From the IMG/VR virus record IMGVR_UViG_3300021137_000010, positions 1-64,000 of that record: a stretch of DNA of 64,000 bases; one strand, given 5' to 3'. Origin of the DNA: a virus. The position numbers were made by a program, and so were the translations under genes. A model generated the notes under the pieces. It was not told where the DNA came from. It worked only from the letters and a program-made list of their open reading frames with translations, and ran no database searches. Of this stretch, positions 4,324 to 36,392 are shown piece after piece (the first letter of the stretch is position 1; each line of letters starts with the position of its first letter).

Positions 4324-5753
4324 AGATTACTGTTAGCCCGAACTTGGTCAAACGTTTGTGTGAACTTTACTTCACCATCCTCAAAATAAGTTTCCATAGC
4401 GTCTACCCATTCAAATCCTTTATCCGTCCAGTTAGTTGGTTTATCAACGCTGGTCTGATATTCTCCACCTGACTCCCACAATTTTACTTTGCCTTTCTTT
4501 GAGGCTTTTCCGGAGTCAGTAATTGGGTCTTTGAATACATCACGCCATACCAATCGAGATTCAGTATCTGGTCGGCCCATAAATTCAACATCAACATCTT
4601 CACGAATGCCAACCGAAGATGCTTTCATAGCAAATTTTAAGGTATCGCGGTCAAGCTGCTGCAATAAGCCACCCCCCATTCCTAGGGCAATGTTATCAGC
4701 CGACCAGCCAGCCACATCCACGACACAGCGAAGAATGCTGCTAAGACTAACGCTGTTAATACCGTCCCCCCAAATGACACGAACATTATTAAGGACCTTG
4801 TATCCTTTGGCGTTGGTTTCGTAGCCAAACTTTTCACCAAGAATGCGAAGCATTCTTGGTACAACGACCACAGGGTCACCAGAGTCAGGACGAATAACAA
4901 CAGTTGCACCAGAATTGACCACATCATCTTTTAGTTCCGTTCCCCACATTTCGCAGGCTTTGTAAATATCGTAACTGTCGCTAACCACAGCAACAATCTT
5001 ACCATCGCCGCCAAACTGCTTAACCATATTGCGGTAAGCGTCTACTTCGTTTGCACGACCCCAGCTTGTAATGGTGCTGTGCTCTGCGGCTGGAATTGAG
5101 AATCCACAGACGTCGGCTCCATATACATCCATTGCATAAAGCACGCCAGACATAGTATCAGTACCCATAAAGTTAACCAAATGGGCGGCACCGCCGATAC
5201 CCGCACTTTCTGTGCTAGATACGCCACGAGCACCAAAGTCGTGGAGCTTAAAATCAATAGTAGTAGGGTCACCGGATTTCTCCAAGTAGTTCAGAATTTC
5301 TTGCTTGATGTGCCAGCTAGTGGTACCGACTGTAGTAGGATACCAGATAGCCCTAAGTGCTGCTGTTTCCACCCAGGTAGTGAGCCAATAGCATTCAGGG
5401 TCTGTGTTTTCGATGGTACAAAGTACATTTCGGGTCGGTATAACCAATCCCTCTTTTGCAGCACGAATGCGGAGAGGTAGCTTGCCATTGTGCTTATCGA
5501 GAATGTACTGCCAACCTGCGCGGTTGAACGGTTCTCCGTGCATGGTCCAGATTTTGTCGGCATAGTCAATGTCTTCCTGTGTGATAGGAGTTGCGAGGTA
5601 TTTTGAGAGCGCCTGCGCGCCGAGGAATTCAGTTTCGGTGTATTTACCACCACGCGACTCGATGTAAGAGTAAACGTATTCAGTACCAGCTGGGTACTGC
5701 TTCCACATGCTAACTTTGTAGCTGTCAGTATCGAGAATAATTGAGTTTTTCAT
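4320..5753 (-). CDS. nadV: Nicotinamide phosphoribosyltransferase
   Basis: 477 residues, the usual NAMPT length. Family hallmarks: DTDSYKVSMWKQYPAGTEYVYSYIESRGG at the N-terminus, KLHDFGARGVSS in the middle (substrate-binding region), VVIRPDSGDPV and VRVIWGDGI for the PRPP/phosphate site, and GMGGGLLQQLDRDT. It converts nicotinamide and PRPP to NMN. With the NadM-Nudix protein at 8842 it completes a two-step nicotinamide-to-NAD salvage route that phages use to restore NAD after host NADase defences. Own leader (about 75 bases) with a hairpin shared with the nadM leader; ribosome site AAAGGAACTTTAAAATG. Confidence 0.95.
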   Translation of the reverse strand: MKNSIILDTDSYKVSMWKQYPAGTEYVYSYIESRGGKYTETEFLGAQALSKYLATPITQEDIDYADKIWTMHGEPFNRAGWQYILDKHNGKLPLRIRAAKEGLVIPTRNVLCTIENTDPECYWLTTWVETAALRAIWYPTTVGTTSWHIKQEILNYLEKSGDPTTIDFKLHDFGARGVSSTESAGIGGAAHLVNFMGTDTMSGVLYAMDVYGADVCGFSIPAAEHSTITSWGRANEVDAYRNMVKQFGGDGKIVAVVSDSYDIYKACEMWGTELKDDVVNSGATVVIRPDSGDPVVVVPRMLRILGEKFGYETNAKGYKVLNNVRVIWGDGINSVSLSSILRCVVDVAGWSADNIALGMGGGLLQQLDRDTLKFAMKASSVGIREDVDVEFMGRPDTESRLVWRDVFKDPITDSGKASKKGKVKLWESGGEYQTSVDKPTNWTDKGFEWVDAMETYFEDGEVKFTQTFDQVRANSNL

Positions 5754-5778
5754 TTTAAAGTTCCTTTAAAGTTAAATG

Positions 5779-5797
5779 CCTAAAGTCTATCTCTAGG
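5779..5797 (-). ncRNA. Conserved leader hairpin of nadV
   Basis: CCTAGAGATAGACTTTAGG: CCTA pairs with TAGG around the 11-base loop GAGATAGACTT. The nadM leader has the identical loop with stem GTGA/TCAC, so every stem position that differs is compensated. It lies about 26 bases before the nadV start, near the expected 5' end of the mRNA. Candidate cis-regulatory RNA or protein-binding site for NAD genes. Confidence 0.72.
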
Positions 5798-5831
5798 ACT
5801 TGCTCTTATGGTAACACAAGCTTATTTTGTG

Positions 5832-6293
5832 CTAAACCAATTTCCGCTTGAGCTTATAAACAAGCTCATCCAAGGTTGTTACCAGCGGTGCTCGAAATCT
5901 ATTACACACGATTTCAACATTCCCCTTGCGCCAAAATCCATCAGGACAGCACACGATTATTTCAGCACCACTTGCGGCACATAGCCCAAGCTCGAGCAGT
6001 GTAATCGGAGATTTTGTGTTCGGGTCGAAGTAGAACACGACTACATCCGCTTGACCGAGCGCGTCCATCTCCCAATCGACCTGCTCTTTAAACTTGGGAT
6101 TATCAATCGATTGTTCCCAGGTTGGGTCCCAATTGCTACGCCGGGGATTCAGAATAGCGACATCGTAGTCAGCCATTGCTTCGGTCACGACGACTTGCCA
6201 ATCTACCGCAGTACCCATTTCGATAGAGCCTGCAAGAAAAACAGCTTGTGGAGCATCCCACTCAAGCGAGGTTGGTGATTTGATTTCGATCAT
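5832..6293 (-). CDS. Nucleoside 2-deoxyribosyltransferase-like protein
   Basis: 153 residues. VFLAGSIEMGTAVDWQ near residue 18, DVAILNPRRSNWDP, then EMDALGQADVVVFYFDP and SPITLLELGLCAASG match the nucleoside deoxyribosyltransferase-like fold (FLAGSI...W, NPRR, D..V..Y......S..E.G). The family cleaves N-glycosidic bonds of nucleosides or nucleotides; the Glu of LLELG is in the catalytic position. Last gene of the nadM operon, joined to the previous gene by ATGA. It may recycle bases or sugars, or process an NAD-related metabolite. Confidence 0.8.
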   Translation of the reverse strand: MIEIKSPTSLEWDAPQAVFLAGSIEMGTAVDWQVVVTEAMADYDVAILNPRRSNWDPTWEQSIDNPKFKEQVDWEMDALGQADVVVFYFDPNTKSPITLLELGLCAASGAEIIVCCPDGFWRKGNVEIVCNRFRAPLVTTLDELVYKLKRKLV

Positions 6294-6478
6294 AACATTT
6301 TTATTCGTTCAAAGCGGATGCCATAATGCTGGCTTCTCCGTTCTACCTCAAATTGCACGCCCTGTGCCGTATCTGTAACGTGGTGCACAATCACTTGCTC
6401 ATTCGGCTCCATCTTGCCAAGCAAATTAGTCAACGCAAGGCGAAGCGCTACTGAGTTTGGTCGAAAACCATTGTTCAT
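6290..6478 (-). CDS. Small hypothetical protein
   Basis: 62 residues, starting at the ATG at 6478 that overlaps the stop of the 53-residue membrane protein; a longer frame exists upstream but would overlap that gene entirely. It contains MEPNEQVIVHHVTD and ends in a basic strand. No family recognised. ATGA-coupled at both ends. Confidence 0.6.
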   Translation of the reverse strand: MNNGFRPNSVALRLALTNLLGKMEPNEQVIVHHVTDTAQGVQFEVERRSQHYGIRFERIKML

Positions 6479-6636
6479 AATGTGTTCGACACAAACAGCA
6501 TCACTAGCGCTAGGTTCCACGCGCTTCCGACTACACATATCCAACCAAATGCTGGTGTACGATTTTTGAAAGCGGTAATTGCCCACTTGCCGAGTAGTGC
6601 AGTACAGCCACCATTGATAAAAAGTCCGATGATCAT
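6475..6636 (-). CDS. Small membrane protein (53 residues)
   Basis: Starts MIIGLFINGGCTALLGKW and has two hydrophobic segments (about 2-15 and 29-50). Its start overlaps the stop of the upstream gene and its stop overlaps the next start, which strongly argues for a real gene despite its size. Unknown function; a two-helix inner-membrane peptide. Confidence 0.68.
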   Translation of the reverse strand: MIIGLFINGGCTALLGKWAITAFKNRTPAFGWICVVGSAWNLALVMLFVSNTL

Positions 6637-6896
6637 GCTGCGTGCACCCCAACTACCTCGTGTCCATTCACTGGCTTCAGCTTGAGGAGGTCATCCAACG
6701 GAACCGTATGTCGATTCCCATTTTTACTGACCCGATATCCAGGCAGTACCTGATGGCCGTTGTACCACCCGCCTTTGCAATACGCGAGTGGTCTCAACTC
6801 GCCAGTGACTTTGATTGAGTACAACCTCTGATTGGTGGTATTCCAAAAATAACCAGGGTACTTAATCGCAACGAACTCTCCGGGCAATACTACCAT
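6633..6896 (-). CDS. Small phage protein, possibly DNA-binding module
   Basis: 87 residues with aromatic/Gly-rich pattern KYPGYFWNTTNQRLYSIK ... GYRVSKNGNRHTVPLDDLLKL. The layout (short strands ending in GYxVSKNG) recalls NUMOD4/AP2-like modules found in homing endonucleases, but no nuclease domain is attached. Strong ribosome site TAGGAGCACGAAAATG. In the nadM operon. Confidence 0.6.
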   Translation of the reverse strand: MVVLPGEFVAIKYPGYFWNTTNQRLYSIKVTGELRPLAYCKGGWYNGHQVLPGYRVSKNGNRHTVPLDDLLKLKPVNGHEVVGVHAA

Positions 6897-7087
6897 TTTC
6901 GTGCTCCTACAGGGTTAGAACATTGTGGACATTCGATGTAATGAATGACCTCGGACCCGCCACCGTAGTCACGCTCGATCCTCTCCTTCACATCTCTTGG
7001 TACGTATTCTAACGTAGCTCCACAATTGTGGCAAACAGCTTGTTTGACAATGGTTGGATGTGGAATGGTGCTGACAACGGTTACCAT
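6890..7087 (-). CDS. Zinc-ribbon protein
   Basis: 65 residues with CHNCG at 19-23 and CPQC near 53-56, a two-knuckle zinc ribbon. Could bind nucleic acid or a partner enzyme. Ribosome site TGGAGCCTAACATG; overlaps the next gene by 7 bases. Confidence 0.72.
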   Translation of the reverse strand: MVTVVSTIPHPTIVKQAVCHNCGATLEYVPRDVKERIERDYGGGSEVIHYIECPQCSNPVGARKW

Positions 7088-7088
7088 G

Positions 7089-7583
7089 TTAGGCTCCAGA
7101 AATCTCTGTGTAGCTGTTTAGGAAAATCTTTTGATCGACAATCCAAGTATCAGTATAATCTTCGCGATTACGCACCACAAAGTCGCCTAGTTTGAAACGC
7201 TGTATATTTGGCATACCATCAATAGTTTCACCCCAGTTACCTTGTATACAAAAATCTGCCGATCCTAGCATAGTATTTGTAATTTGGCAAAACTCCACGC
7301 TGTTTTCCTGCTTTGGATTACACACCATCCAGCCATCTGGATCAATTGCATCAACAGTATACTTGGATAGTAGTTTCTTTGCCGATTGCTGCCACGCATC
7401 ATTACTTTCACCAATACAAAACATTGCATCAGCATGTACTGGTTCTTTAGCCTCAAGTGTATCCACGAGAAATTTTGCCATTACAGTGCGATCAACAAGC
7501 AATGTTACCATTGGTTTGGCACGCAGGCCTTTTGTTTTACGACCCACTTTGTAAGTCAACTTGCTTGTATCTAATAGTTCCAT
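7089..7583 (-). CDS. Hypothetical protein, possibly PGDYG-like
   Basis: 164 residues. The C-terminal half (VEFCQITNTMLGSADFCIQGNWG ... FKLGDFVVRN) recalls the PGDYG family of small proteins that sense or bind nucleotides; the signature tripeptide is degenerate here (LGDFV). The N-terminus has VGRKTKGLRAKPM. Ribosome site TTAGGAGCATAATATG. Second of two genes between the RlmN-like enzyme and the zinc-ribbon gene. Confidence 0.6.
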   Translation of the reverse strand: MELLDTSKLTYKVGRKTKGLRAKPMVTLLVDRTVMAKFLVDTLEAKEPVHADAMFCIGESNDAWQQSAKKLLSKYTVDAIDPDGWMVCNPKQENSVEFCQITNTMLGSADFCIQGNWGETIDGMPNIQRFKLGDFVVRNREDYTDTWIVDQKIFLNSYTEISGA

Positions 7584-7584
7584 A

Positions 7585-8586
7585 TTATGCTCCTAACTTC
7601 CAAGTGCTTGGTGTGTGGATCTTTTGTTGACCACAGCCGACGCTTGGTTTGACATGTTCTGGGTGATCTTTCATCCAGTCCTGCACGTACCACAACTGAC
7701 CGCATCCGCCGCCGATTGTATCTTGGCCAGCCGGGTCGAATACCCGGACATTGTATCCCTGCTCCAGCAGCTTATTCCCAAAGTCTACAGCCAAATCACG
7801 TTGGTAGTTGTTCTTCGCTTCTGCATGAGCATCACGTTCGCAGATTACAGATACAGTCGCTTCCCACACATATGGCGGAAACAGAGATACGATTCGCGAC
7901 ACGTCATCATCGGTATTGTTACCGTCGTGAGCGCAGTAGTTGAAATACGGTTTGCGGCCGGTTTCCAAGAACCAATCTACACCCTCGTTTGCAATCTCTT
8001 GTAAGTTCATTTTCTTCTTGAACGGAATCAACTTGTCACGAGCTTCGTCTGTGCTTTCGTGAATGCTAAACTGCAGACCCACGGTAGGAATGCGAACACT
8101 CATGTCACGGATCCAAGTGTAATCAACTTTTGGACCAGATGAGCTGATCAGCAGAGCAGCGTTTGGATACTTGGCGTATAGCACGTCAAACGCTTGTTCT
8201 AGTGCTTTGTTCAATGCCGGTTCGCCCATGCTCATTACCATGATCTGGAGCTTTTTGATCGCCGTCGGATCAACACCTTCGATTTGACTCGAGAGAATGT
8301 ACTCAGCCTGTCCAACAATTTCTTCTGCAGTCAAGCTGCGAACAAAGTAATCGCCGGTTCCGCAAAACCGGCAACCCATTGGACAACCACACATTGTGGA
8401 AATGCACAATACAGTACGCTCATCATACGTGGGGTACTTGTACAGCACTGATTCAACTGCGATGTCGTCCTTTTCAAAGACGTACTTCTTCACATGCTCT
8501 TTTTCGTCTTCAAAGACGTTGATGTTGGTCCACATATTTTTAGTCCTGATGTATGCGTCGTATTGTTTGTAATCGGGGTGAATCAT
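7585..8586 (-). CDS. RlmN/Cfr-like radical SAM methyltransferase
   Basis: 333 residues. The iron-sulphur motif is C68-PMG-C72-RF-C75. All landmarks of the RlmN/Cfr class are present: a Cys seven residues before the first cluster ligand (C61, the RlmN C118 equivalent), MSMGEPALN (GEP motif), VGLQFSIHES, and GGGCGQLW carrying the methyl-carrier Cys (RlmN C355 equivalent). RlmN methylates A2503 of 23S rRNA and A37 of some tRNAs. The protein is slightly shorter than bacterial RlmN, missing part of the N-terminal domain, so the RNA target may differ. Start overlaps the stop of the previous gene. Confidence 0.85.
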   Translation of the reverse strand: MIHPDYKQYDAYIRTKNMWTNINVFEDEKEHVKKYVFEKDDIAVESVLYKYPTYDERTVLCISTMCGCPMGCRFCGTGDYFVRSLTAEEIVGQAEYILSSQIEGVDPTAIKKLQIMVMSMGEPALNKALEQAFDVLYAKYPNAALLISSSGPKVDYTWIRDMSVRIPTVGLQFSIHESTDEARDKLIPFKKKMNLQEIANEGVDWFLETGRKPYFNYCAHDGNNTDDDVSRIVSLFPPYVWEATVSVICERDAHAEAKNNYQRDLAVDFGNKLLEQGYNVRVFDPAGQDTIGGGCGQLWYVQDWMKDHPEHVKPSVGCGQQKIHTPSTWKLGA

Positions 8587-8840
8587 CGAACACCTCCGTT
8601 GCTAAAATCATCATGCGCTGGAGGGATGCCGACGGTTTTTTCGTCGTCTTCGAATTGCACAGTACACCCACTGAATGCTTTATGCGAGTAGCGGTCCGCA
8701 AAATCAGATATCTCAGCCAAGTTAAACTCGATTTTTTTGACTTTGCGACCAGTGTCACGTTCGAGATATTCCTTGATGATGCTATCTACTGCTGCCTTCT
8801 CGAGTGATGCGCTCACTGCGATCTTAAAGGTGTAGCTCAT
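8583..8840 (-). CDS. Small hypothetical protein
   Basis: 85 residues; begins SYTFKIAVSASLEKAAVDSIIKEYL with a strand-helix-strand look, ends in acidic and Gly-rich tail. No recognised motif. Strong ribosome site AGTAGGAGCGTAACATG; sits between nadM and the RlmN-like gene with overlaps of 1-4 bases. Confidence 0.68.
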   Translation of the reverse strand: MSYTFKIAVSASLEKAAVDSIIKEYLERDTGRKVKKIEFNLAEISDFADRYSHKAFSGCTVQFEDDEKTVGIPPAHDDFSNGGVR

Positions 8841-8841
8841 G

Positions 8842-9867
8842 TTACGCTCCTACTCCCCACTGAATCATTTCAAAGTGATCTTCGAAGCACTCATCGCTGC
8901 GAATTTCTGCAATTGGAACCCAACGTGCCTTTTCGGCGTCGTCAGCACCCTTTACCTTTGCAAGTGGACCGTCAGGCAACACGATCTTGAAGCAGTGTGT
9001 GATGATACGGCCACGAGGAGAACGATCGATCGCATCAAACACTTTGTTTGACTGAATGCTTCCACGCAACACTGGAGTTGGAACCTTGATCATCGTTTCT
9101 TCACGCAACTCACGCAACATCGCGTCTTCCACACTACGGTCGGTGTTTGCATTGACAAAACCACCAGGCAGTGCCCACAGTCCCTTACCAGGCTCAGAGC
9201 GGCGCTTGACCATCAAGATATGTCCACTTTGGATAACCAGTGCGTCAGCTGTGCTCAGGATCGGAGGATATTTCAAACCAGCGTATTGCTTTTTGTACTC
9301 AGTAACGAATTCGCGCTCGCGCACAACTTGTTCGTGTTCTGGCGTATCGCAGAATTGGTTCAACAAATCAAATGTAGTAGGGGGGACGACGTTTCGAATG
9401 AAATTCATGTTGGGATCGCGCTTGAAATACAAGTCGCGAATTTCAGACGCATCGAGTGGTTCCAGCAATTCAATTTCTTCGAAGCCCCATTGTGGGAACA
9501 TTTCTAGGTAGTAAGAGCTCGGATCCTTCTTGTGGCCGATAATGCCAACTTTGTCACCGGGCTTGGTATGCTTTGCAACTAGTGCTTGCACGCGTGCAGC
9601 CCATGCTTGATCGTTATACAAACTATCAGGGTTCGGTTCAACGTGGAACGTCAGTGTTCCAGCCATGCCGTTCGTTGCCAGCTTGATCATTCGGCTACGT
9701 TCGTCGAATGTAAATGGATTCTTGTAGGTGCGAGGTTGGTGTGCGCTGCCAACGATGAAGACAACTTGTTCAGCAAGCGCTGTGGCTCGTTGAACTAGCA
9801 GCAAGTGAGCTGTATGGAAGGGCTGGAAGCGTCCGATAAGGACGAGGGTATCGTATTGTTTAGTCAT
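8842..9867 (-). CDS. nadM: Bifunctional NMN adenylyltransferase / Nudix hydrolase
   Basis: 341 residues, two domains. Residues about 5-175: nucleotidyltransferase with GRFQPFHTAHLLL (HxGH-like) and LDASEIRDLYF (the second ATP-binding motif), making NAD from NMN and ATP. Residues about 195-341: Nudix domain with ALPGGFVN ... AMLRELREET, whose family members hydrolyse ADP-ribose or similar. This is the same architecture as the phage/cyanobacterial NadM-NudV proteins. First gene of a nine-gene operon to 5832. The promoter at 9922-9950 and a leader hairpin shared with nadV precede it. Confidence 0.95.
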   Translation of the reverse strand: MTKQYDTLVLIGRFQPFHTAHLLLVQRATALAEQVVFIVGSAHQPRTYKNPFTFDERSRMIKLATNGMAGTLTFHVEPNPDSLYNDQAWAARVQALVAKHTKPGDKVGIIGHKKDPSSYYLEMFPQWGFEEIELLEPLDASEIRDLYFKRDPNMNFIRNVVPPTTFDLLNQFCDTPEHEQVVREREFVTEYKKQYAGLKYPPILSTADALVIQSGHILMVKRRSEPGKGLWALPGGFVNANTDRSVEDAMLRELREETMIKVPTPVLRGSIQSNKVFDAIDRSPRGRIITHCFKIVLPDGPLAKVKGADDAEKARWVPIAEIRSDECFEDHFEMIQWGVGA

Positions 9868-9892
9868 TTCAAAATCCTTGAAAAATAATGAT

Positions 9893-9911
9893 GTGAAAGT
9901 CTATCTCTCAC
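9893..9911 (-). ncRNA. Conserved leader hairpin of nadM
   Basis: GTGAGAGATAGACTTTCAC; the stem extends to GGTGTGA/TTCACATC in this copy. The loop GAGATAGACTT is identical to that in front of nadV while the stem differs by paired changes. The predicted transcription start is about 5 bases upstream, so the hairpin sits at the extreme 5' end of the mRNA. Confidence 0.75.
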
Positions 9912-9921
9912 ACCTGTATAT

Positions 9922-29859: not shown

Positions 29860-30030
29860 TTAAGCAGTGTGCTCTACATCCCATTCCACATAGTTACGCC
29901 AGTCCGTCTCGGTAGCAGCGAAATCATCTTTCCATACAAGTGCTTCTACCTCGTCGGAAAATACCTTCACCACTGATTCAAATACATCACAAAAGTTGTA
30001 GTAGCACTGATAACCGAGATAGACTTTCAT
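29860..30030 (-). CDS. Small phage protein (56 residues)
   Basis: Begins KVYLGYQCYYNFCDVFESV, acidic with several Trp (WRNYVEWDVE), a pattern typical of short phage early proteins. ATGA overlap with the upstream gene. Function unknown. Confidence 0.7.
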   Translation of the reverse strand: MKVYLGYQCYYNFCDVFESVVKVFSDEVEALVWKDDFAATETDWRNYVEWDVEHTA

Positions 30031-35494: not shown

Positions 35495-35770
35495 TTAGCG
35501 GTTATTGGGAGATAAGGTCACCGTGACCTCAGAGTCATGCTTAGGCCACTAGGGCAAAGCGTTCGTCGTTCGAAGCGTTAGCTGCGTTTAGTTTTTCGCT
35601 GGTTTTACGTGTACTGCATCACGATTCCTAATCATATCTACTTATTGCGCAGGCAATCTCCACGTCGGGCCCATCAAATATGGTCTGACTTTTACAACAG
35701 ACCGTAGGCACTACCAGCCTAGCATATTTGGTGGACCCGGGGGCGTCGAAGCCCCTTCTTGCACACCTTT
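35495..35770 (-). ncRNA. ssrA: Circularly permuted (two-piece) tmRNA
   Basis: Order on the minus strand: T-arm GGGGC-TTCGAC-GCCCC (35755-35740), acceptor 3' strand CGGGTCC, A, encoded CCA (35729); a structured intervening loop whose AAATATG/CATATTT continues the acceptor stem and which has two further hairpins; acceptor 5' strand GGGCCCG (35672-35666); then the coding part with the tag frame and a terminator. The acceptor has the G3-U70 wobble required for alanylation. No T-arm or CCA follows the tag, so the gene is permuted, as in alpha- and some beta-proteobacteria, and would mature into two RNAs. tmRNA frees stalled ribosomes and tags the nascent protein. Confidence 0.82.
35541..35585 (-). 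other. tmRNA tag-peptide reading frame
   Basis: GCA GCT AAC ... GTG GCC TAA reads AANASNDERFALVA then stop; the resume codon may be the first or second Ala. The NDERFAL core resembles betaproteobacterial tags and the LVA end is a ClpXP-type degradation signal. Confidence 0.78.
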
Positions 35771-35780
35771 TGATACAATT

Positions 35781-36392
35781 TCAAACAGAATTCTTATATA
35801 GAGTGGTCAACTTGGATAAACTATCCCCGTAGAGCACTCTGCGTTCTTTACTATTTATACCTTCATCCAGGTTTACCAATCTACCACCGTTGGCTACCAA
35901 CCCGAATATATCAATCAACTTCGATTCCAGCATCAATGCTTCTTTTTCTGTCAACCGATCTTTTAATACTTCTACGATAACCTCTTTACCAAACTGTTGT
36001 AAACGTTGCCGAACTTTTCTATGAGTTTCATTGCGGTTGAGGTTGTATGCTCTATTACCCGTGCCCTTGCCGACATAAAATGGCAGTTTTGTCATTCCTA
36101 TTGATGCTGCAAAAGTTGTTTTTCCATTTTTACCGGCGTGAGCATTTTTAGTAGGCTCACAATGCGTATACACATAATACACAGGCGCATCATCCAGCAT
36201 CAATGAGTTGTATACTGGTGAAATATCTGTGTTGTATATTTGCTGGCATGCATCTAATACACTTCCCGCACGCTCTTTATGAGTTCCATACTTACCAGCT
36301 CGGTGTTGCCCAATCAGGGTTTGGGCAAGTTTCAACAGCCGGGTGCAATCTTCCAGCGAATCGATGTCAACTTCGTATGATTTCAAGTTCAT
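35781..36392 (-). CDS. GIY-YIG (LEM-3-like) endonuclease-domain protein
   Basis: 203 residues. Residues 70-105: VYYVYTHCEP ... FYVGKGTGNRAYN, the GIY-YIG pair, followed by HRKVRQRL and LTEKEALMLESKLIDIFG with the catalytic-type Glu. The N-terminal 65 residues are helical. More like LEM-3/LOG-type domains than canonical free-standing homing endonucleases; could be mobile or a nuclease used by the phage. Confidence 0.75.
   Translation of the reverse strand: MNLKSYEVDIDSLEDCTRLLKLAQTLIGQHRAGKYGTHKERAGSVLDACQQIYNTDISPVYNSLMLDDAPVYYVYTHCEPTKNAHAGKNGKTTFAASIGMTKLPFYVGKGTGNRAYNLNRNETHRKVRQRLQQFGKEVIVEVLKDRLTEKEALMLESKLIDIFGLVANGGRLVNLDEGINSKERRVLYGDSLSKLTTLYKNSV

Follow-up and report, generated by a model that had tools for sequence, protein, structure and literature searches.

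How do phages control the genes with which they rebuild nicotinamide adenine dinucleotide (NAD+)? The question is raised by a 64-kb stretch of viral DNA (the window), the first 64 kb of the 70.6-kb IMG/VR record IMGVR_UViG_3300021137_000010, in which Pfam and PHROGs matches predict both a nicotinamide phosphoribosyltransferase (NadV) and a nicotinamide mononucleotide (NMN) adenylyltransferase (NadM), the enzyme pair of NARP2. Together, NadV and NadM form a phage NAD+ reconstitution route, which rebuilds the NAD+ destroyed by bacterial defences; the name NARP2 for this route reportedly goes back to Osterman et al. in 2024, and we know of no description of how the phage genes are controlled. An earlier note, made from the window sequence, had proposed that the two leaders share a hairpin. 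We are confident of the element itself, in structural and genomic terms: a cis-regulatory RNA of two hairpins, real, pathway-specific and apparently new, precedes the phage NAD+ reconstitution genes. Its two hairpins covary, one of them has a near-invariant loop, their spacing to the start codon is kept, and the element is specific to these genes in phages that are otherwise unrelated. It almost certainly acts in cis as a translational control RNA, and we infer regulation of translation itself. That many otherwise unrelated phages place the same two-hairpin RNA before both NAD+-rebuilding genes points to a dedicated, apparently undescribed RNA switch or operator.

Two Hairpins in the Leaders of nadV and nadM

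The first hairpin, P1, lies on the minus strand in front of each gene, exactly where the earlier note had placed it (Table 1). In both window leaders it has a stem of about 7-10 pairs and an AUAGA pentaloop within GAUAGAC. The run common to the two copies is 13 nt long (AGAGATAGACTTT), so that the identity of the loop region proposed before is upheld, but its ends are paired and the supposed 11-base loop shrinks to the pentaloop. Likewise, the stems do stay paired despite their different sequences, but folding extends them from the four pairs first recognized to about 10. The G and C at the ends of the 7-nt loop pair with each other, and since an A-U pair takes their place in a small number of other phages (L010, L077, L083 and the nadM leader of phage B23), the apical loop is taken to be AUAGA. 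The second hairpin, P2, which the earlier note had missed, carries the Shine-Dalgarno sequence in its loop and abuts the start codon; P1 and P2 form a plain nested fold in both window leaders, as judged by folding.

Both hairpins are exceptional within the window. Of its 85 open reading frames (ORFs), just two display a Shine-Dalgarno sequence in the loop of a hairpin of at least 6 bp, namely nadV (7 bp) and nadM (6 bp). The 7-mers GATAGAC and AATAGAT occur 19 times, with six of six stem pairs only in the two leader copies, against 0.08 copies with all six flanking pairs expected in random sequence. The 11-mer occurs a third time without mismatch (30016-30026, plus strand), but this copy was rejected as chance; it has no stem and lies inside a minus-strand reading frame (MKVYLG...).

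Covariation in Related Leaders

Relatives of NadV and NadM were collected in IMG/VR and confirmed by tblastn (151 loci). The P1 motif recurs there with differing stems, 28-36 nt before the start of nadV, nadM or the small gene directly upstream of nadM, and viral contigs supply 127 distinct leaders beyond the window (70 of nadV, 44 of nadM and 13 others), with a G+C content ranging from 29% in the window to 69% in L327. An (A/G)NAGA pentaloop hairpin is present in 87 nad leaders, and in 76 of these its loop is AUAGA; AAAGA, AGAGA, GGAGA (L053, L054) and the 6-nt GAUAGA are less common. Position 2 of the loop is variable, because the nadM leaders of two phages, G043 (115000-115300, L512) and G045 (7100-7400, L511), have AGAGA and the nadV leaders of the same phages AUAGA. 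Around P1, AAG(U/A)CC...GGCA(A/U) is kept in nadV-type leaders beyond the paired bases (window 5798-5801, minus strand), even in Synechococcus phage B23 (L406); these flanks may reflect the transcript start or an extra contact.

Both stems covary strongly once more leaders are aligned, as the earlier note had demanded. In the P1 alignment A1 (56 distinct sequences, gathered by core word and downstream start codon independently of the stem, with one stemless sequence removed by hand), 78.6% of cells are paired against 28-52% when slid, all six pairs show changes on both sides, and covariation is 0.712 against 0.10-0.17 when slid, a value reached by none of 500 shuffles. In the P2 alignment A2 (75 sequences, registered on GGA independently of pairing), the corresponding figures are 94.9% against 31-52%, double changes in six of six pairs, and 0.779 against 0.09-0.16. 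The whole-leader alignment A3 (101 sequences) gives 0.643 against 0.04-0.11. Furthermore, when mutual information is ranked over 61 columns of 117 leaders, the 12 pairs of P1 and P2 come first and no third helix or pseudoknot appears among all column pairs; P2 rows were registered by pairing in this table, which makes it uninformative for P2 itself and informative against further helices. A pseudoknot of the P1 loop with the linker or the Shine-Dalgarno sequence was considered and rejected, there being no covarying or invariant complement.

Specificity for NAD Genes

Covariance model R1, built on P1 alone, was run over 36 whole phage records and gave 53 matches, of which those of at least 23 bits cluster at nad genes. 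Model R2, built on P1 and P2, gave 54 matches of at least 27 bits over 30 whole phage records, the next match scoring 22.9 bits; 52 precede nadV, nadM or the first gene of the nadM operon, and the remaining two stand before a short ORF next to an insert that lies immediately upstream of nadV. Over 32 further records (20 from IMG/VR, 10 named phages and two bacterial assemblies), R2 gave 30 matches of at least 25 bits. Of these, 28 stand ahead of nadV or the nadM unit; the other two precede, in G040, a 114-aa ORF that lies immediately upstream of nadV and, in L049, the gene of a PnuC-type NMN transporter. The two R2 searches, which have two records in common, thus yield 84 matches of at least 25 bits, all at NAD genes, in 58 distinct viral records. 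Because 39 of these 58 belong to the source set of the relatives or are close to it, the result is one of within-genome specificity rather than independent discovery. Neither model bears out the fear, voiced with the first proposal, that the motif sits at random sites or unrelated genes, and alignments and searches together support the idea of one covarying RNA element dedicated to NAD synthesis; it was not seen at prs or pncA-like genes, which the note had also listed for such a search.

Among complete named phage genomes outside the model, R2 marks nadM and/or nadV in seven phages, whose hosts are Ruegeria/Phaeobacter, Rhodobacter, Xanthomonas and Synechococcus (Table 1), and the matches end on, or immediately before, the annotated start codon. 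In Xanthomonas phage LucasX, CCGGCG-GATAGAC-CGCCGG is also present at nadV, as found by eye. In SCTP-2, short GGC-GATAGA-GCC hairpins before both nadV and nadM are missed by R2, and a 25-bit match at 384026 was discarded as chance, comprising an AU-rich ribosome-binding site without the GATAGA hairpin. In 80 nadV loci of bacterial assemblies (841 kb) there are two weak matches only (E 0.43 and 0.77), which end exactly at the nadV start; both contigs are from metagenome-assembled genomes and may be phage. The element is not universal among phage nadV and nadM genes: R2 found no match in ACP17, Mx1, RAS14, XacN1, Cp1R7A-A1 and the three Vibrio phages tested.

Predicted Position near the 5′ End of the Transcript

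Strong σ70-type promoter-like sites stand ahead of 91 of 129 leaders, against 3.5% of random windows, in agreement with the earlier placement of the hairpins near the predicted 5′ ends of separate transcripts. In 33 of 48 cases the predicted start of the nadV transcript is exactly 10 nt upstream of the loop, and that of the nadM transcript is 7-21 nt upstream of it. In the window such a site lies just upstream of P1 of nadM, and the nadV leader has a weak promoter match only. Since the promoter-like sites put the predicted start shortly before the loop, P1 would lie at or near the beginning of the transcript, in a predicted 5′ untranslated region (UTR) of about 50-65 nt; the 10-nt distance in nadV would leave no room for a further aptamer upstream.

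Comparison with Known RNAs

No family of Rfam 15 (4227 models, whose inclusion of the NAD riboswitch classes was not checked, which bounds this negative) reached its gathering score on either leader, and at E up to 10 there were spurious low-score matches for the nadV leader and none for the nadM leader. No description of the element was found in a literature search that was thin on subscription journals and preprints, and the word 'riboswitch' is absent from a review of viral NAD+ systems (PMC9503650). The NAD+-II riboswitch (pnuC motif) is likewise a 5′ UTR RNA of an NAD-related gene whose structure overlaps the ribosome-binding site and start codon, and for which translational control has been proposed (PMC7749635, PMC10085692). 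However, its three helices include a long-range pseudoknot, an A5 strand takes part in a triple helix, and many of its nucleotides are fixed (PMC7749635, PMC10085692), whereas the phage element consists of two plain hairpins with one fixed loop and precedes biosynthesis genes rather than a transporter; its fold is nested, and the column pairs of 117 leaders hold no signal of a pseudoknot with the ribosome-binding site. The NAD+-I riboswitch (nadA motif) resembles it as a regulatory RNA of two consecutive stem-loops dedicated to NAD genes, but its stem-loops are two similar bulged ones, with a ACANCCCC bulge and an internal tertiary contact (PMC7297122). That bulge is absent from the aligned phage leaders, and the leaders have no Rfam match.

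Autogenous translational operators of phages are close in design: each is a fixed-loop hairpin that adjoins or contains the ribosome-binding site and controls one gene or a small set of genes within its own system. Examples are those of MS2/R17 coat protein and T4 gp43; unlike these, the present element precedes two, sometimes three, genes, is common to unrelated phages and has candidate binders only. Lambda boxB, of the N-type pentaloop hairpins, is also a short phage-leader hairpin with a purine-rich pentaloop, but boxB acts in transcription antitermination together with boxA, and the NAD element immediately adjoins the start of translation. A parallel is also offered by NrtR, a Nudix-related regulator of NAD genes in bacteria, in its dedicated control of an NAD regulon and its ADP-ribose-type signal; NrtR is a DNA-binding repressor, whereas the phage element is a structured RNA, and no repressor of the NrtR kind was identified.

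What May Bind the Element

We tentatively favour a protein that binds P1, preferably an autogenous one (NadV or NadM), a reading to which we give slightly less than an even chance. The element has the fixed-loop hairpin, the covarying stem and the place next to the ribosome-binding site that characterize protein operators, and outside the Shine-Dalgarno sequence all positions intolerant of variation lie within one apical loop, as in protein-bound hairpins. That so small a part is fixed (the AUAGA loop), and that the alignments reveal neither a pseudoknot nor a third helix, leans towards a protein-binding hairpin. The binder would be NadV or NadM, a metabolite acting directly, or a widely conserved host factor. 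NadM, NadV and a PhoH-like ATPase are the only proteins common to DSS3_MAL1, B23 and LucasX (phmmer, E 1e-3); because these genomes share no others, the RNA appears to move together with the genes that it precedes, and it is unlikely that the phages encode a dedicated third regulator. Of the 47 records searched, 46 have both NadV and NadM, and the one that does not is a 9-kb fragment, so both remain candidate binders; in the review, every NadM phage is also said to have NadV (PMC9503650).

In such a mechanism, a compact translational control RNA, making up most of a short 5′ UTR, would travel with the genes by which phages reconstitute NAD+. At the 5′ end of the mRNA or close to it, P1 would offer its (A/G)NAGA pentaloop, mostly AUAGA, as a recognition site, and P2 would keep the Shine-Dalgarno sequence in a weak hairpin abutting the start codon, making ribosome access tunable. 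A trans-acting partner at P1, possibly touching both hairpins, would set how often P2 opens. The partner is most likely a protein, with NadM and NadV as the best candidates, which would give feedback on NAD+ synthesis. Several points weigh against autogenous control: we know of no documented case of a phage NadV or NadM as an RNA-binding autoregulator, a pathway-exclusive association together with overlap of the ribosome-binding site is also the classical riboswitch signature, and P2 could be a constitutive feature of translation initiation with P1 as a 5′ stabiliser.

It is possible, if rather unlikely, that the leader is a new and very small riboswitch class, with NAD+ or a metabolite of the pathway (NMN, nicotinamide, ADP-ribose) as its direct ligand; binding would stabilise or open P2 and thereby shut down NAD+ synthesis when NAD+ is abundant or start it upon NAD+ depletion. 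Indeed, a conserved structured 5′ UTR RNA tied to the genes of one biosynthetic pathway, with the ribosome-binding site inside it, is what riboswitches generally present, NAD+-II riboswitches overlap the ribosome-binding site in the same way (PMC7749635), and the element is spread over phages of cyanobacteria and several proteobacterial groups that have almost no other genes in common. However, only the AUAGA loop and the Shine-Dalgarno sequence are near-invariant, position 2 of that loop varies (AUAGA, AAAGA, AGAGA), no pseudoknot, junction or third helix is seen, and the stems vary freely and can pair fully, which leaves little space for a ligand pocket. We are doubtful of the specific version in which a phage riboswitch senses NAD+ or a breakdown product and turns on the reconstitution genes when immunity depletes NAD+. 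If metabolite-responsive, the element would be a compact NAD sensor, and if a riboswitch, a virus-encoded RNA sensor of host defence, among the simplest riboswitches known.

An element without regulation, in which P1 is a protective 5′-terminal hairpin and P2 an efficient ribosome-binding hairpin, is improbable. Such roles would suit the predicted location of P1, at the 5′ end of the mRNA or close to it, the display of the Shine-Dalgarno sequence in the P2 loop and the weakness of AU-rich P2 stems, but a stabiliser needs no fixed loop sequence and should also occur at other genes, and both the long Shine-Dalgarno hairpins of the window and the whole-genome matches are confined to NAD genes. 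More improbable still is an operator for some RNA-binding protein besides NadV and NadM that is widely conserved and of host or phage origin, such as a CsrA-like dimer or a PhoH-family helicase. Two hairpins with 5-nt loops at near-constant spacing would suit a dimer bridging both loops, some distant P1 loops are GGAGA, and PhoH is the sole further protein of the three phages compared above. CsrA, however, needs GGA, and GGA is present in the P2 loops but not in the usual P1 loop; moreover, a generic host regulator should also sit at other phage genes, and PhoH is common in phages. That the motif is a repeat arisen by chance, or an operator that a transcription factor reads on the DNA, is practically out of the question: although the 11-mer is common in the window at two mismatches and viral contigs selected by the bare 13-mer and ATG alone form a background, mostly stemless and ahead of unrelated genes, the stems keep their pairing and not their sequence, which DNA operators conserve, and the compensatory changes in both stems, together with the placement before the start codon and the 127 distinct further leaders, refute both.

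A conserved, pathway-specific RNA operator in otherwise unrelated phages implies selection for controlled, possibly demand-driven, anti-defence expression. The element provides a defined 55-nt target for direct binding tests, and its covariance model locates NAD reconstitution loci.

Genes around the Leaders

On the minus strand of the window, nadM is followed by a run of small genes, which includes those of a radical SAM protein and a deoxyribosyltransferase-like protein, and then by nadV (Table 1).

Table 1. Features of the window, and R2 matches in named phage genomes outside the model
Feature	Position	Strand	Evidence
nadV, nicotinamide phosphoribosyltransferase, 477 aa	4320..5753	-	Pfam PF18127 + PF04095; phrog_448, E 9e-148
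P2 hairpin, nadV leader, TTTAAAGGAACTTTAAA, Shine-Dalgarno GGA in loop, ends at base before ATG	5754..5770	-	folding, P2 alignment
P1 hairpin, nadV leader, CCTAGAGATAGACTTTAGG, apical loop AUAGA	5779..5797	-	folding, P1 alignment; R2 match 5751-5801, 62.3 bits
Deoxyribosyltransferase-like protein, small gene between nadM and nadV	5832-6293	-	
Radical SAM protein, nadM operon	7585..8586	-	Pfam PF04055
nadM, NMN adenylyltransferase fused to Nudix domain, 341 aa	8842..9867	-	Pfam PF01467 + PF00293
P2 hairpin, nadM leader, TTTCAA-GGATT-TTGAAA, Shine-Dalgarno in loop, last pair uses A of ATG	9867..9883	-	folding, P2 alignment
P1 hairpin, nadM leader, GTGAGAGATAGACTTTCAC, stem extends outward to ~10 pairs	9893..9911	-	folding, P1 alignment; R2 match 9865-9915, 48.1 bits
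Putative σ70-type promoter-like site of nadM (TTGAGA, 17 nt, TATCAT), just upstream of P1	9922..9950	-	inferred
Synechococcus phage B23	nadM 42319, nadV 44106		R2
DSS3_MAL1	nadM 90846, nadV 92263		R2
Xanthomonas phage LucasX	nadM 139407		R2
DSS3P8, RpAliso, RcXuper, MD18	nadM and nadV		R2

Leaders are also found at further places in related phages. In L066 (5963-8680), nadV is split into two ORFs (233 and 249 aa) that flank a 378-aa ORF resembling a GIY-YIG endonuclease. A separate P1-P2 leader precedes either half, as if one had come with the insert so that the second half is still expressed. In L013 (4905-5960), L023 (4927-5960) and L007 (4800-5960), a leader and a short ORF are followed by a second leader before an intact nadV; in L013 a minus-strand 308-aa endonuclease-like ORF lies between the two, the leader being duplicated around the insert. 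In L136 (8058-8103), a radical SAM gene is preceded by its own P1-P2 leader, and it is a possible third member of the regulon and may encode an NAD-related enzyme. The first gene of the nadM operon recurrently encodes a protein of 108-123 aa from one of three families (L005 3650, L105 5645 and L090 5673; phrog_33851, weakly phrog_37251, and phrog_12218). The PnuC-type NMN transporter gene (PF04973) of phage contig L049 has a P2-type Shine-Dalgarno hairpin without P1 (2015-2057).

Elsewhere in the window, Rfam RF04321 matches a permuted transfer-messenger RNA (tmRNA) at 35541-35791 on the minus strand (53.5 bits, gathering score 47), for which ARAGORN gave no call; this phage-borne two-piece tmRNA may merit separate attention.

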